From Anaerolineae bacterium (GTDB taxonomy: Bacteria > Chloroflexota > Anaerolineae > Aggregatilineales > Phototrophicaceae), in NCBI GenBank assembly GCA_022841825.1, contig JALHQT010000002.1:248001-312000 (forward strand): a stretch of DNA of 64,000 nt, read 5' to 3'. Shown piece after piece: positions 4,842 through 46,477 of this stretch. The number at the start of each line of letters is the position of its first letter. Position 1 is the first letter of the stretch. The notes below the pieces were generated by a model, which saw nothing but the letters and a program-made list of their open reading frames with translations, was not told the DNA's origin and did no database searches. Made by a program: the position numbers and the translations under genes.

Positions 4842-4966
4842 GGCATTCAGGCTCCGTGTGAGGTGTTTTGATGACGATTATATGCGCTTAAGAAAGCGAT
4901 ACAAACCGCATCACGGCTCACCCCAGGGCGAACGCATCAAAACCACAGCCACGTTTTCGCGTCGCT

Positions 4967-5110
4967 GGAAGCTCAAAGCTTCCCGCTTGAATGACGGAAA
5001 AAGCCACTGGAAGTGGCTCCAAAGCCCTTCTTCATGTCGAAAGCACGGGTTAGAGAGCCGCTTTAGCGGCTTTCGGCTGGGCTTGTAGCCTGAAGCTTTG
5101 AGCTTCAGGC
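4967..5110. repeat. Cluster of four variable-arm palindromes
   Basis: The 295-base gap between the STAND gene and the next minus-strand gene holds four perfect palindromes and no gene. They are GGAAGCT-CAA-AGCTTCC (4967-4983), AGCCACT-GGA-AGTGGCT (5002-5018), AGCCGCT-TT-AGCGGCT (5056-5071) and a 23-bp one at 5088-5110 (arm GCCTGAAGCT, loop TTG). Arms differ but each left arm ends in T and each right arm begins with A around a 2-3 nt loop. The promoter of the STAND gene should lie at its left end, but no convincing box was seen. Confidence 0.85.
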
Positions 5111-5136
5111 GGCGAAATAAGTTTGATGCAATTACC

Positions 5137-5571
5137 CTACGGCTCACCCCGCGCCTCGCCCACGCCGACATCGCGCGCCCACCATTCGATGCGCGTGATG
5201 GCGGAATCGCCGTGCAGCAGGGCGTGGATGTCCCGCGCGAGCTGCGCCTGGCGCTCCGGCGAGGGGCGCGTGCGCGCGCGTCGCATCCACAGGCAGCCCG
5301 GATCATCGGTAATCCCGACGATCCACTGTGAAAGCGGCTCGTCCTCTTCCGGCGGTGCGTACTGTCCCGCGTGAATCCAGAACTGCGACGCGTCGAGGCG
5401 CAGCCAGAAGCCATAGCCGTAATCCTCGCCGATCACGTCGTCGGCGTCGTAGCCGCGCGCGCGCAGCCCCGCCAGCAGCCACGCCGCCAGGTCATGACCC
5501 AGCACGTCGTTGATAGCATCCGGCAGCGGCGTCAGGGTGAAGCGGTCGGTATAAAATGTGACGATCTTCAT
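5137..5571 (-). CDS. Hypothetical protein, 144 residues
   Basis: I do not recognise this protein. It is soluble, acidic in the middle and rich in aromatic residues (GYGFWLRLDASQFWIHAG, SQWIVGITDD, IEWWARDV), with no signal peptide or membrane segment. The composition and a mixed alpha/beta pattern suggest a compact single domain, as in many small uncharacterised proteins of the immunity-protein kind; that comparison is only by style. ATG at 5571 is the first start in frame and there is no clear ribosome binding site. It is divergent from the UvrA-like gene, whose start is 79 bp away, so the two may share a promoter region. Confidence 0.65.
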   Translation of the reverse strand: MKIVTFYTDRFTLTPLPDAINDVLGHDLAAWLLAGLRARGYDADDVIGEDYGYGFWLRLDASQFWIHAGQYAPPEEDEPLSQWIVGITDDPGCLWMRRARTRPSPERQAQLARDIHALLHGDSAITRIEWWARDVGVGEARGEP

Positions 5572-7929: not shown

Positions 7930-8050
7930 ACGCCCACCCATGAAATGGGCGGGCTATTGAACGACGCCCCCTGTGGGGGCTGACTCCACATATCATTGAT
8001 CAGCCCCCACAGGGGGCGGCTTCGCTGTAGCCGGGGGCATTTCATGCCCC
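7930..8050. repeat. Palindrome cluster between UvrA-like and glycosidase genes
   Basis: Four hairpins stand in a row: CCCAT-GAA-ATGGG with a G-T containing outer stem (about 7932-7954), GCCCCC-TGT-GGGGGC (7966-7980), GCCCCC-ACA-GGGGGC (8002-8016) and GGGGCAT-TTC-ATGCCCC (8034-8050). The middle two are reverse complements of one another. They follow the same rules as the other intergenic palindromes. They may end transcription of the UvrA-like gene, although no T-tract follows them. Confidence 0.8.
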
Positions 8051-16792: not shown

Positions 16793-16925
16793 ATCCCCCG
16801 CCGACGGCTCAAGCGCGTCGGCTAGCCCTATCAAGCGCACTAAAGGCGCTCTGAAAAAGCAGTCTGCGCCGATAGCCCCTTCAGTGGGCTTGATCGTTGT
16901 AGCCGAACCGCTTGAGCGGTCGGCG
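16793..16925. repeat. Palindromes in the leader of hisS
   Basis: The 261-base gap between hisS and the small membrane gene carries repeat palindromes: an imperfect one at about 16798-16820 (arms GACGGC / GCGTCGG around CTCAAG), another at about 16873-16890 (AGCCCC-TTCAG-TGGGCT, imperfect) and ACCGCT-TG-AGCGGT at 16907-16920, flanked by GTAGCCGA. These lie within the likely 5' leader of hisS. No T-box was recognised and no gene is present. Confidence 0.65.
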
Positions 16926-19558: not shown

Positions 19559-22000
19559 TTATTCCCCCGTCGGCAGCCAGACATTCTTGACCTGCACCGC
19601 CTCGTGCAGGAACTCCTCGCCCGCGCCCTGGTGCGCATCCGCCCAATCGCGTGCGATGCCGTAGCTGACGAACGTCCGCTTCATGTTGTGCGCCGAAAGC
19701 TCCTCCACCTTGGCGCTGCCGTCTGCACTGCCGAAGTACCACATCGCGTCCACGTCGTCATGCTCGACCAGCGTCTTGGTCAGGTGGTCGCGGTCGCCCG
19801 TGACGATGTTGACGACGCCGCCCGGCAGATCGCTCGTCTCCAGCACCTGATAGAAATCGGTCGCGCTCAACGGCGAGACAGGCGACGGGATGACGACGAC
19901 CGTGTTGCCGCGCGCGATGGCGGGCGCGACCAGCGAGACGAAGCCCAGCAGCGGATACTCGTCCGGGCAAGCGATGCCGACCACGCCAATCGCCTCATTG
20001 ACCGCCAGCGTCAGCCCGCGCAGCGGCGTCTCCTGCATCGTGCCGCCGAACTTATCGCTGTAGGCGGCGTAAGTGAAGAGGCGCTCGATGCTCAATTCGA
20101 CCTCGCGCGTGGCGTACGCCTCGCTCTTGCCCGTCTGCGCGGCGATGCGGCGGGCGAATTCGTCGGCGCGCGCGCTCAGGTTTTCCGCGATGTAGTAGAG
20201 GATCTGCGCGCGGTTGTGTCCGCTCTTGCTCGCCCAGCCCGCTGCCGCGTTCGCCGCCTCGACGGCATCGCGGATATCCTTGCGGTTGCCATCGCCGACC
20301 TGCCCGACGTGCGCACCGTCCGGCGCGTAGATCTCGCGGCTGTAGTTGCCATCCGGGCGCACCTGCTTGCCGCCGATGAACAGCTTGGGCGTGCGGTCGA
20401 TGGGGAACAAGGACGATTGTAGGGGCGACCCATGGGTCGCCCCTACAGACGATCCGTTAATCGGTGCGGGGCGACCGGGCACAGCGGCACCCCATTTCTC
20501 GATCTTGCCGACCTGCGGGCGCGGGCGCTCCTGCCACGTCGGGCGCACATATTCGTACAAGCCCTCTTTGCCGCCTTCGCGCCCGAAGCCGCTCTCGCGG
20601 TAGCCGCCAAAGCCGCTCGCCGCATCGAACAGGTTCGAGCAGTTGACCCAGACGGTGCCCGCCTTGACCTTACGCGCGATGTCGAGCGCCAGGTTAATGC
20701 TCTCGCTGTAGATGGTCGCCGCCAAGCCGTAGCGCGTGTTATTCGCCAGCGCGACCGCCTCTTTGGGCGTGCGGAACGAGAGCGCGACAACGACGGGTCC
20801 GAAGATCTCCTCCTGCACGACAGTCGAGGACGGTTGCACGTTGGTCAGCAGCGTTGGGCGGTACCACGAGCCTTTCTCCGGCAGCGGGCAGTCCGGCTGG
20901 TAGAGATGCGCGCCCTCTGCCACGCCCTTCTGCACCCAGTCGTCAATCGACTGGCGCTGTCCAGGATCGACTATCGCGCCGATGTCGATCGATTTGTCGA
21001 GCGGTCCGCCGATGCGCAGCAGATTCATGCGCCGCTTGACCTTGGCGATGAACTTATCGTATATGCTCTCCTGCACCAGCAGGCGCGACCCCGCGCAGCA
21101 GACCTGACCCTGGTTGAACCAGATCGCATCGACCAGCCCTTCGACCGCCGCGTCCTGGTCGGCGTCGTCGAAGACGATGAACGGCGACTTGCCGCCGAGT
21201 TCGAGCGACATGCGCTTGCCGCTGCCCGCCGTCACCTTGCGGATGATGCGCCCGACATCGGTGCTGCCTGTGAAGGCGATCTTGTCGATGTCCGGGTGCT
21301 CGGTGATGGCGGTGCCGAGCGCGCTGCTGCCCGTCATGATGTTGACGACGCCCGGCGGCACGCCCGCTTCATGCAGGATCTCTGCGAAGAGCAGCGCGCT
21401 CAGGCTGGTATACGAGGCGGGCTTGAGGATGACGGTGTTGCCCATCGCAATCGCGGGCGCGATCTTCCAGCCCATCATCATGAGCGGGAAGTTCCAGGGG
21501 ATGATCTGCCCGACGACGCCGACGGGCTGGTAGCCGGGCAGCTCCTGCTCCATCAACTGTGCCCAGCCCGCGTAGTAGTAGAAGTGGCGGGCGACCAGCG
21601 GGATGTCGAGGTCGCGCGTTTCACGGAAGGGCTTGCCGTTGTCGAGCGACTCGACCACCGCCAGCAGGCGGGCGTGCTTTTGCACCGTGCGGGCGATGGC
21701 GTACATGACGCGGGCGCGCGTGTGCCCGCTCGCCTTGCTCCACGACTCAAACGCCGTGCGCGCGGATTTCACGGCGTCGTCGAGGTCATCCTTGCCGCCG
21801 TTGGCATAGGCGGTCAGCACTTCGCCCGTCGCCGGATTGCGCGTTTCGTTGTATTTGCCGCTCTTGGGGGCGACCCACTTGCCACCGACATACAGGTCGA
21901 ACTTACGCTTGTGATCTTCCAGCCACGCCTGCGCCGCATCGGGCGCTTCCGGCGCGGGACCATAGGACATGGTGTGGAACAATTCGGCTACTTTTGACAT
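19559..22000 (-). CDS. Bacterial ALDH16: two-domain aldehyde dehydrogenase
   Basis: This 813-residue protein contains two aldehyde dehydrogenase domains. The first (about 25-490) is complete, with LELGGKSPF (general-base Glu) and nucleophile C301 in NQGQVCCAG; it oxidises an aldehyde to the acid with NAD(P)+. The second (about 535-813) keeps the fold (LFIGGKQVRPDGNY, AIARGNTVVVIPSPVSPLSATDF) but has no GQxC motif and ends early, exactly the feature of the ALDH16 family, where it stabilises the enzyme. The linker near residues 515-530 is encoded by an intergenic-type palindrome (20419-20446) and reads SVGATHGSPLQ. The start is ATG 22000 (MSKVAELFHTM). The substrate is unknown. Confidence 0.9.
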   Translation of the reverse strand: MSKVAELFHTMSYGPAPEAPDAAQAWLEDHKRKFDLYVGGKWVAPKSGKYNETRNPATGEVLTAYANGGKDDLDDAVKSARTAFESWSKASGHTRARVMYAIARTVQKHARLLAVVESLDNGKPFRETRDLDIPLVARHFYYYAGWAQLMEQELPGYQPVGVVGQIIPWNFPLMMMGWKIAPAIAMGNTVILKPASYTSLSALLFAEILHEAGVPPGVVNIMTGSSALGTAITEHPDIDKIAFTGSTDVGRIIRKVTAGSGKRMSLELGGKSPFIVFDDADQDAAVEGLVDAIWFNQGQVCCAGSRLLVQESIYDKFIAKVKRRMNLLRIGGPLDKSIDIGAIVDPGQRQSIDDWVQKGVAEGAHLYQPDCPLPEKGSWYRPTLLTNVQPSSTVVQEEIFGPVVVALSFRTPKEAVALANNTRYGLAATIYSESINLALDIARKVKAGTVWVNCSNLFDAASGFGGYRESGFGREGGKEGLYEYVRPTWQERPRPQVGKIEKWGAAVPGRPAPINGSSVGATHGSPLQSSLFPIDRTPKLFIGGKQVRPDGNYSREIYAPDGAHVGQVGDGNRKDIRDAVEAANAAAGWASKSGHNRAQILYYIAENLSARADEFARRIAAQTGKSEAYATREVELSIERLFTYAAYSDKFGGTMQETPLRGLTLAVNEAIGVVGIACPDEYPLLGFVSLVAPAIARGNTVVVIPSPVSPLSATDFYQVLETSDLPGGVVNIVTGDRDHLTKTLVEHDDVDAMWYFGSADGSAKVEELSAHNMKRTFVSYGIARDWADAHQGAGEEFLHEAVQVKNVWLPTGE
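20419..20446. repeat. GTAGGGGCG-clamp palindrome inside the ALDH16 coding sequence
   Basis: A perfect 28-bp palindrome (clamp GTAGGGGCG, core ACCCATGGGT, clamp CGCCCCTAC) lies in the interdomain linker of the ALDH16 gene. An identical copy is intergenic at 38795-38822. The reading frame is kept through it. This shows the element can move into, or be tolerated in, coding DNA. Confidence 0.92.
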
Positions 22001-22160: not shown

Positions 22161-22399
22161 GTACAAAGTAAAAATCGCGAACGTGGTGCGAATACAAAAA
22201 CTGAGAGAAGTGCCGAATCGCTCGGTTCTTTTCGTCTCTGAAAAGTTTACTTTTCGTTGTTGTAATTGTCCTAAACGCGGTATCATCTGCGCCCACTTCT
22301 GATAAAGACTTTTGGGCGCGATTTGTCAGTATAAATCGACGCGGCTAGAGAGCGATCCCCATTTCATGGGGGATTGTATGAGTGAGGAGGACGCCAGAT
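22161..22399 (+). other. Leader region of the respiratory operon, no gene
   Basis: No coding frame was seen here. The stretch is AT-richer than its surroundings. It has a weak hairpin (CCGA-ATCGC-TCGG) followed by TTCTTTTC that could be an attenuator, and the repeat-type hairpin at 22357-22371. AGGAGG at 22385-22390 is the strong ribosome binding site of the Rieske gene. Confidence 0.5.
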
Positions 22400-28940: not shown

Positions 28941-29059
28941 TGCCAGATGCTCAAGCATCTGGCAAAACGCGCCTCGTAACCGAGACGATCAGCCAACATT
29001 CCAGCGTGCTTCGCCCGGTTTACCGGGCGCATTGTTTGCCGGATGCTTGAGCATCCGGC
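28941..29059. repeat. Three variable-arm palindromes after the FKBP pair
   Basis: The 281-base gap contains TGCCAGATGCT-CA-AGCATCTGGCA (28941-28964), CGCCCGGT-TT-ACCGGGCG (29012-29029) and GCCGGATGCT-TG-AGCATCCGGC (29038-29059). All follow the same T-loop-A rule. The first, 20 bases after the stop codon, could terminate or stabilise the FKBP mRNA. The rest of the gap, up to 29202, shows no gene. Confidence 0.85.
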
Positions 29060-30773: not shown

Positions 30774-31028
30774 GCAGGGGCGTAAGATATTGCGCCCCAT
30801 TCACTGCAAGCTAAAGACTGCCCACGAGCATTCTCGCGACGCCTCAGGTTCAAAACCTGAGGCTAGTGCCGGATCGATAAGCCCGTAAACGGGCTGACGC
30901 AAGCCAGCACAGCCCGTTTACGGGCTTTCAGAGAGAATCTTAGCCCACAGTTTTGAACTGTGGGCGGACGAAATGCGACCAACAACGCTTAACTTGCTGC
31001 GTAGGGGGCGCAACATATTGCGCCCTAC
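30774..31028. repeat. Palindrome array with two GTAGGG(G)CG-clamp elements
   Basis: This 367-base gap is almost all repeats and has no gene. A clamp element is at about 30774-30801 (AGGGGCG-TAAGATATTG-CGCCCC). Then come a 23-bp palindrome with arm GCCTCAGGTT and loop CAA (30841-30863), AGCCCGT-AA-ACGGGCT (30880-30895), AGCCCGT-TT-ACGGGCT (30911-30926) and arm GCCCACAGTT with loop TTG (30943-30965). A second clamp element lies at 31001-31028 (core CAACATATTG). The two AGCCCGT palindromes have inverted loops. A lower-complexity stretch with GGACGAGG words leads to the bioY terminus. Confidence 0.88.
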
Positions 31029-34000: not shown

Positions 34001-34051
34001 CACCACTGCCTGGGTGCATACGGACATTGGGAGTGGATGCGAATTTCGCCA

Positions 34052-34225
34052 CCAGGGGTTCAAAACCCCTGGCTACAAGTTGCGGCGGGAAGCCACCTGA
34101 AGGTGGCTCTGACCCGCCGCTAGATCCCGCGACAGGCTGCGCACGATGATTCTCCCGGCGGGTCAGAGCGGGTTTCAACCTGCTTCCCGCCGGAACATTG
34201 TAGCCGGGCGGCTTTCAGCCCCCGG
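34052..34225. repeat. Nested palindrome cluster before the first GH39-like gene
   Basis: The 403-base gap 34001-34403 holds repeats, then a promoter, and no gene. There is a palindrome with arm CCAGGGGTT and loop CAA (34052-34072). AGCCACCTGA-AGGTGGCT (34091-34108) is enclosed by an outer pair GCGGCGGG / CCCGCCGC (34082-34089 / 34113-34120). A GGGTT-TC-AACC type palindrome is enclosed by CCGGCGGG / CCCGCCGG (34155-34162 / 34186-34193). An imperfect GCCGGGCGGCT-TTC-AGCCCCCGGC closes the cluster at about 34203-34225. Confidence 0.85.
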
Positions 34226-34278
34226 CGAAGCGGCTCACCCAAAAATTCGAATTCGCCCCCTCCGCTGTCTGCGCCTGT

Positions 34279-35818: not shown

Positions 35819-35846
35819 GTAGGGGCGTAAGATCTTGCGCCCCTAC
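35819..35846. repeat. GTAGGGGCG-clamp element with core TAAGATCTTG
   Basis: The clamp GTAGGGGCG / CGCCCCTAC encloses TAAGATCTTG, a core different from the copies at 20419 and 38795. It stands between paralogues 1 and 2 of the glycosidase cluster, 21 bases after the stop codon, and could serve as a terminator or processing site. Confidence 0.88.
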
Positions 35847-38794: not shown

Positions 38795-38822
38795 GTAGGG
38801 GCGACCCATGGGTCGCCCCTAC
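38795..38822. repeat. GTAGGGGCG-clamp palindrome with core ACCCATGGGT
   Basis: This perfect 28-bp palindrome is identical to the one inside the ALDH16 gene (20419-20446). It starts seven bases after the stop of paralogue 2, in the gap before paralogue 3. Confidence 0.95.
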
Positions 38823-43644: not shown

Positions 43645-43777
43645 TCGTGCGCAGTGCGTGGTGCGCGGTGCTAACAAACCCGGTAGGGACGAGGCACGCC
43701 TCGTCCGTTCGTCGCGGACGCGATGAATGGCGTCCCTACTTGGCGACATTTTCGCACTACGCACTGCGCACCTCGCA
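43645..43777. repeat. Composite repeat: GTGCGTGG words flanking a 57-bp double hairpin
   Basis: Outer arms made of GTGCG-words (GTGCGCAGTGCGTGGTGCGC at about 43649 and CGCACTACGCACTGCGCACC at about 43753) enclose a 57-bp core (43683-43739). The core starts GTAGGGACGAGG and ends TGGCGTCCCTAC and contains two hairpins. The same composite occurs at 46331-46477. It separates fbpA from fbpB inside the operon. Confidence 0.85.
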
Positions 43778-46330: not shown

Positions 46331-46477
46331 GTGCGTGGTGCGCAGTGCGTGGTGCGGACAAGCTGGAGTCCTGTAGGGACGGCATTGATGCCGTCCGTGT
46401 TGCGCGGACGCCATGAATGGCGTCCCTACAACGGCTGTGTTCTTTCGCACCACGCACTACGCACTACGCACCTACCG
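46331..46477. repeat. Composite repeat: GTGCGTGG words flanking a 57-bp double hairpin (second copy)
   Basis: The same plan as at 43645: outer arms GTGCGTGGTGCGCAGTGCGT (46331) and CGCACTACGCACTACGCACC (right), core of 57 bp at 46373-46429 with GTAGGGACGGCATTGATGCC and ATGAATGGCGTCCCTAC. Core sequence differs from the first copy in the first hairpin but keeps its pairing. It lies inside the Gld-type operon. Confidence 0.87.

Follow-up and report, generated by a model that had tools for sequence, protein, structure and literature searches.

Four-hairpin repeats with a fixed, oriented tip and paired stems in an Anaerolineae genome, probably read by an IS200-type transposase

The closest described relatives of the repeats reported here are bacterial REP sequences and the Y1 transposases that accompany them. 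Compensated stem variants are already known for GTAG REPs, and section 5 of PMC3733652, which describes them, gives the inward-placed arrangement of tags in REP dimers as "TT". The same source records GTAG-type REPs in a Chloroflexi species, T. roseum, and units of a GTAG repeat plus a stem-loop in hundreds of copies in Pseudomonas. For the Marinomonas REP transposase, the SELEX and mutation experiments described in PMC8266576 found T12, T13 and A15 of the four-base tip to be needed and N14 to be free; in vitro, swapping the stem to its complement had a moderate effect, and a stem mismatch was harmful. The account of Y1 subclass 1.2 in PMC6006769 gives it the signature Y---Q--HH, no REP and generally no terminal structures. 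REPs for this subclass are reported neither in that account nor in the open-access literature searched.

We analysed a window of 64,000 nucleotides (positions 248,001 to 312,000 of contig JALHQT010000002.1, assembly GCA_022841825.1) for which an initial annotation had listed 17 intergenic palindromes. With moderate confidence, we interpret them as REP/REPIN-like substrates of a subclass 1.2 Y1 TnpA, which would read them at the tip and foot while the arms drift and stay paired.

Hairpin elements in the window

All 17 listed palindromes were found again, a few bases from the positions first given, and all close with T..A. They include one with an arm mismatch (1512-1534) and two with arms of 6 bp (16907 and 22357). 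Their arms had been described as unrelated; this did not hold, as 15 of the 17 belong to multi-hairpin elements whose arms are shared family-wise. The four palindromes within 30841-30965 form a single four-hairpin element that is palindromic as a whole, which we call type A.

30798-31005, unstranded: type A element with imperfect terminal inverted repeats (30798-30815 and 30988-31005), from a 13-copy alignment with flanks and end positions
30841-30863, unstranded: H1, outer hairpin, tip T-CAA-A, TAG at the inner foot (bottom strand)
30880-30895, unstranded: H2, inner hairpin, tip T-AA-A
30911-30926, unstranded: H3, inner hairpin, tip T-TT-A, inverted copy of H2
30943-30965, unstranded: H4, outer hairpin, tip T-TTG-A, TAG at the inner foot (top strand)

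The hairpins H1 to H4 are spaced by 16, 15 and 16 bp. H3 is an inverted H2 and the H4 tip is an inverted H1 tip, which makes the element a palindrome of palindromes. An exact search of the genome with the inner type A hairpin gave 24 matches, 20 of them as inverted pairs 31-33 bp apart. Folded as single-stranded DNA, the type A stretch reaches -47.1 kcal/mol against -17.4 for shuffles (z -10.3), and H2 and H3 merge into one long hairpin flanked by H1 and H4. The DNA covered at the orthologous locus of 15 relatives (L055-L069) contains no four-hairpin chain, two of these loci ending at contig ends; given these cuts and a protein identity of 68-76%, no empty site is comparable at the level of bases.

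The other listed palindromes lie mostly within elements of similar layout, assigned to types B, C (two elements), D and F.

1512-1643, unstranded: type C element, four hairpins, the outer T-closed and the inner C-closed
4914-4923, unstranded: direct repeat CGGCTCACCC, left copy at the type D border
4924-5139, unstranded: type D element, four hairpins (4967-4983, 5002-5018, 5056-5071, 5088-5110) within CAGGG-type inverted repeats (4924-4941 and 5122-5139)
5140-5149, unstranded: direct repeat CGGCTCACCC, right copy at the type D border
7932-8050, unstranded: type C element, inner hairpins C-closed
16907-16920, unstranded: single short hairpin, tip T-TG-A
22357-22371, unstranded: single short hairpin, tip T-TTC-A
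28941-29059, unstranded: type B element, with clear hairpins at 28941, 29012 and 29038 and a fourth that is degenerate
34047-34230, unstranded: type F element, hairpins 34052-34072 and 34091-34108 and two weaker ones

Two further hairpin families are present in the window. One (GTAGGGGCG...CGCCCCTAC) lacks the T..A tip and occurs at 20418-20447, 35819-35846 and 38795-38822. The other (GGACG...CGTCC) has mixed tips and occurs at 43687-43706, 46377-46396 and 46406-46425; similar hairpins with C-gc-G tips flank RAYT-like genes at two loci elsewhere in the genus (L175 and L177).

Copies, polar tip and compensated stems

A covariance model built from 13 type A copies and run over the 5.9 Mb genome gave 86 matches at E<=1, corresponding to 47 distinct places (44 at E<=1e-3). 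These comprise 15 type A places (one of which, L195, is a mosaic), about 17 of type D, three of type E, seven of type F and five that are partial or degenerate. Since the search scored 150 of 1293 first-look candidates, types other than A are undercounted. Each type A place is matched on both strands, as befits an inverted dimer. Whole elements have thus been copied, contrary to the initial view that the pattern is not expected from copying of one sequence. One type E element (L213, G000:C2:6568-6708) is flanked on either side by a copy of a direct repeat of 33 bp, far longer than the border repeats of type D.

The tip rule was assessed by counting perfect hairpins with arms of at least 7 and loops of 2-3, with coding and intergenic DNA separated by a simple gene finder. 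T-closed hairpins make up 18 of 26 in the intergenic DNA of the window and 0 of 10 in its coding DNA; shuffles of the intergenic DNA that keep dinucleotides lead one to expect 0.4 (20 shuffles, loops 2-3). The statement that almost all such palindromes keep a T..A centre therefore stands as an excess over coding DNA and shuffles, and falls short in that 8 of the 26 intergenic hairpins are not T-closed. Beyond the window we sampled 40 stretches, ten of which had been chosen for holding a type A match and are excluded from the unpicked counts. Ten unpicked 20-kb stretches outside contig C1 again favour T closure in intergenic DNA (24/31 against 8/42 in coding DNA). Twenty stretches of C1 show no preference (4/13 against 10/73), so the tip rule is not genome-wide and is absent from the part of C1 that was sampled. 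Contig C1 (1.46 Mb, sampled at L014-L033) has a lower GC content in most stretches and is nearly devoid of T-tipped hairpins, which crowd the other sampled contigs.

The tip also has a polarity, absent from the initial annotation. At 46 of the 47 covariance-model places, 161 of 174 hairpins close with T..A; the remaining 13 include the inner hairpins of type E. When loops are read inward (the right half of an element as it is, the left half reversed, with the strand set by the side of the element and not by TAG), 156 of the 161 T-closed hairpins have a loop that starts with T, the commonest loops being TTG (63), TC (35), TT (28), TTC (15) and TCC (12). Of the 86 outer hairpins, 63 have TAG at the inner foot; none (0/86) has it at the outer foot. 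This foot tag is NTAG rather than strict GTAG, with 28 GTAG among the 61 read from outer hairpins.

Among the 13 type A copies, 99.3% of stem cells pair. Changes on both sides affect 11 of 34 pairs, all of them in H1 and H4, and double-change cells number 50 against 16.3 in shuffles, none of 500 shuffles being as high; slid structures give at most 7 such cells. The number of further pair types in these copies (20 against 18.8 shuffled, 183/500 as high) shows no excess, and H2, H3 and the three innermost pairs of H1 and H4 hardly vary. The notion that arm changes are compensated is accordingly borne out for the outer arms by the double changes, and is seen neither in the count of pair types, which resembles that of shuffles, nor in the near-invariant inner arms. 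H1 and H4 within one element usually differ in arm type, and identical arm types recur across elements on either side, which suggests that halves have been reshuffled.

Y1 transposases beside the hairpins

The genome holds five matches to PF01797, four of which are small proteins. All four score above the cut-off of the IS200/IS605 model and below that of the RAYT model (NF047646; 17.8 to 40.2 bits against a cut-off of 80). The search for a RAYT-like transposase thus led to IS200-like Y1 genes beside such hairpins, and to none reaching the RAYT cut-off. The signature YxxxQxxHH is present in 2 of these 4 proteins, 9 of 9 from the genus, 22 of 29 from the class and 79 of 80 from other phyla, the last figure being partly a matter of construction as that set was fetched with peptide patterns including QKEHH. 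In a tree, the 122 sequences included from these sets all cluster together, separate from five sequences of IS200 type and five of RAYTs; support for this is modest (0.709). Relatives of solved structure are IS200/IS605-type transposases such as 2a6m (IS608; E 8e-17). Among named relatives, the L009 protein is closest to one from an uncultured bacterium (41% identity) and one from an Anaerolineae MAG (44%).

Within the genome, four-hairpin elements flank the TnpA gene at L009 on both sides. Closure with T..A is seen in only 3 of their 8 hairpins; the inner ones are C-closed, and in the upstream H4 an A..T pair encloses a loop of 5 bases. The frameshifted TnpA gene at L012 starts 5 or 20 bp after a four-hairpin element, depending on the choice of start codon. 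No four-hairpin element directly adjoins L010 or L011, with a type D element about 1.1 kb from L010, and no TnpA gene was found adjoining the type A elements.

The association recurs in other genomes. A T-tipped hairpin lies within about 500 bp at 8 of 9 such loci of the genus when one mismatch is allowed; at the strict cut-off, near hairpins are T-closed in 14 of 14 cases, in 4 of 9 loci. At L158 and L179 a hairpin pair stands on each side of the Y1 gene. Across the best-scoring loci of the class, which are not a random draw, 49 of 53 near hairpins are T-closed against 5 of 10 far ones, in 11 of 29 loci; T-closed hairpins are missing nearby at 18 of the 29, and three arrays (L266, L270 and L278) contribute 25 of the 49, hairpins that share a locus not being independent in these near and far counts. 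Locus L262 coincides with L161; the class totals include it, and the TAG-foot and strict counts do not. In the three arrays, which adjoin Y1 genes, units of two hairpins with T-nn-A tips alternate, an arrangement that points to the two-hairpin half as the basic unit. In other phyla, represented by the best 80 of 103 confirmed loci, 39 of 59 near hairpins are T-closed against 19 of 68 far ones, in 17 of 80 loci, with no T-closed hairpin near the other 63. Hairpins are also denser close to Y1 genes, with 59 in 62 kb as against 99 in 504 kb farther away. T-GAA-A, not T-T.., predominates among the tagged tips of other phyla (9 of 19), so the first loop base is not universal.

We rejected the idea that the T tip is peculiar to subclass 1.2. 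Near hairpins at RAYT loci of the class are T-closed in 35 of 52 cases (9 of 30 loci), so the tip is common beyond the subclass. Elsewhere in the genus, the RAYT-like loci L175 and L177 have C-gc-G tips, and IS200-type loci are T-tipped in 3 of 5 cases.

A long protein with a C-terminal Y1_Tnp domain occurs in all 15 genus genomes searched, in open frames of 551-1279 aa. The copy of this genome lies outside the window (L037:4190-7951, contig C2) and has a weak receiver-domain match; its relatives are L163-L167, L171-L174, L176 and L180. In 12 of 12 aligned proteins the second HUH histidine is Y and the end motif has no tyrosine, so the domain looks like a domesticated, catalytically dead Y1 domain. 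These relatives and L013 were excluded from the transposase counts.

The fixed tip and the matched stem changes probably arise because an IS200-type transposase reads the tip and foot and not the stem. The repeat unit would be a tandem pair of hairpins together with its inverted copy, most outer hairpins bearing TAG at their inner foot. A small HUH/Y1 transposase, most likely IS200-like and of subclass 1.2, would bind the single-stranded hairpins by the foot and the tip T-T-N(N)-A and, once bound, would cut and rejoin the DNA strand. The stem would be recognised as a paired rod and not by its letters, so that stems could drift, provided that the two sides change in step and the tip is kept. 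Copies would spread by transposition in trans, with halves swapped between them; for type D, movement as a DDE-type MITE whose ends resemble those of ISAs1 would come on top of this or take its place. The sequences themselves establish the anatomy, the polar tip rule, the compensation in the outer stems, the copy number, the enrichment beside the transposase genes and the border duplications of type D. Binding, cleavage and mobility by the candidate TnpA, and the matching of particular TnpAs to particular subfamilies of elements, are what we infer. The T-T-N-A requirement of the Marinomonas enzyme matches the pattern here (T-TN(N)-A, the arms paired yet otherwise free) and by analogy may extend to subclass 1.2. 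The earlier suggestion that a protein reads the hairpins is favoured to this extent, by the Y1 genes beside them and, indirectly, by the T-T-N-A assay described in PMC8266576; nothing pointed to an RNase reading the loop. Evidence counter to reading by a Y1 enzyme comes from the mixed tips of L009, the lack of a directly adjoining four-hairpin element at L010 and L011, type A elements beside which no TnpA gene was found and a contig C1 that lacks the pattern in the stretches sampled. Further points against it are the majority of loci in the class and in other phyla that have no T-closed hairpin close by, the T tips of RAYT loci, the T-GAA-A tips of other phyla and the border duplications of type D. 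Taken together, the observation of the palindromes is confirmed and its interpretation partly supported, because copying is also at work.

Alternative explanations and related systems

Border duplications are not expected of a Y1 enzyme. Hallmarks of the ISAs1 family are CAGGG ends, terminal inverted repeats and target duplications of 8-10 (about 9) bp. Type D copies end in the inverted repeats CAGGGCRAWCGCWTCAAA. Borders were compared in 15 copies with both ends (13 with hairpins and two hairpin-less copies with the same ends), leaving out 3 of 16 copies whose ends were not both found. Five of the 15 share at least 7 bp and four of these share 9-12 bp, a length reached in 0 of 210 cross-pairs, which share 7 or 8 bp in 4 of 210 and never more; the other 10 of 15 share less than 7 bp. 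Duplications of at least 9 bp are present in 3 of the 13 hairpin-bearing copies. This border-anchored test supersedes a generic duplication scan of 45 elements, which had found 1-2. On contig C6, about 20 bp from a type D-like end, lies part of an ISAs1-type transposase that scores below the family cut-off and has a DDE_Tnp_1_assoc match. No intact ISAs1 with type D ends was found, the search returning fragments below cut-off, one of them beside a matching end, and no two type A or type D ends lie 0.3-10 kb apart as those of a long transposon would. Type D therefore appears to be an ISAs1-type MITE with a tetrad of hairpins inside it.

These data bear on the strongest alternative, that the elements are ordinary MITEs moved by DDE transposases, with hairpins as passengers and a tip rule merely inherited from ancestral copies. 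It would account for the ends and duplications of type D, the hairpin-less copies and the nearby ISAs1 fragment, and type A also bears inverted terminal repeats. As a general explanation we consider it unlikely. The ends of types A and D are unrelated, yet hairpin layout, tip and foot are alike; the elements beside TnpA genes lack type A and type D ends (checked for L196); arms diverge and tips do not; and hairpins with the same tip adjoin Y1 genes in other genomes. Type A borders share at least 10 bp in 3 of 15 copies against 3 of 210 cross-pairs, at an inconsistent distance from the ends, and so give no clear sign of duplications.

The hairpins might instead act in RNA, as bidirectional terminators or protectors of mRNA 3' ends, with selection on RNA pairing keeping the arms. 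Compensated stems fit this role, as do the short T runs that follow the inner hairpins of types A and D and a type B hairpin (29012) scored as terminator-like. Relative to genes, 46 places divide into 22 co-directional, 10 convergent, 7 divergent, 3 overlapping an ORF call and 4 undecided; background gaps of at least 150 bp divide into 128, 26 and 53 of the first three kinds. The convergent share (10 of the 39 places that could be classified, 26 of the 207 gaps) is about twice background and speaks for a role in RNA; the 7 of 39 places between divergent genes speak against it. The terminator scan found 5 sites against 5.1 in shuffles, none in the type A element, and with the divergent sites this argues against terminators as a common role. 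An Rfam scan of the window returned only a tRNA at gathering scores, and tip polarity and the TAG foot are left unexplained. A role of the hairpins in RNA is weakly supported and, as the source of the pattern, improbable.

Template switching in palindromes can copy a mutation of one arm into the other, so that compensation needs no protein; it may be the source of the double changes, which are as it predicts, and is highly improbable as the whole explanation, for it gives no account of the fixed T..A tip and its polarity, of TAG at the inner foot only or of the nearness to TnpA genes.

Returning to recognition by a Y1 transposase at tip and foot, a bolder extension can be put forward tentatively. 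The oriented tip (T-T-N(N)-A, in other phyla often T-GAA-A) and the TAG foot could be the whole signal for subclass 1.2, with the stem left free. One enzyme line might then serve many arm families, and DDE-type MITEs carrying the same tetrads would make the element one shared by two unrelated transposition systems. Should recognition by a Y1 transposase hold at all, subclass 1.2, listed without REPs in the account of PMC6006769, would gain a substrate, and the many hairpins with free stems and fixed tips would be a natural experiment on what enzymes of this kind recognise. Compensated stems in intergenic bacterial repeats could then also be explained at the level of DNA, which is relevant wherever covariation is taken as evidence for RNA.

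The system can be set beside those already described. With the TnpA of Y1 subclass 1.2, as characterised in PMC6006769, it shares the signature Y---Q--HH, a short protein and few copies; there the subclass is without REP and found mainly in Cyanobacteria and Bacteroidetes. It resembles the Marinomonas REPtron Mb, as presented in PMC8266576, in the tip T-T-N-A and in a stem that is paired yet freely exchangeable. The Marinomonas system has 5-bp stems, 2 bases between tag and stem and a transposase of TnpA-REP group 3, and was tested by experiment, whereas ours is known from sequence. GTAG REPs, BIMEs and REPINs (the last being the subject of PMC3116915), in the description of PMC3733652, are likewise short intergenic hairpins with loops of 2-3 and a GTAG-like tag at one foot; that description adds inverted dimers, alternative complementary stem letters and adjoining Y1 transposases. 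The elements here differ in their NTAG tag, two hairpins per half and four per element, terminal inverted repeats and a transposase that we place in another subclass. The type D elements resemble an ISAs1-type MITE in their CAGGG ends, duplications of about 9 bp and an ISAs1 fragment beside such an end; only type D fits, and it carries four REP-like hairpins. Finally, TIRtrons/TIRYT with double palindromic TIRs, as outlined in PMC3733652, are also Y1 genes flanked by units of a GTAG repeat and a stem-loop, and the present elements are distinguished from them by a regular inverted tetrad with a common tip rule.
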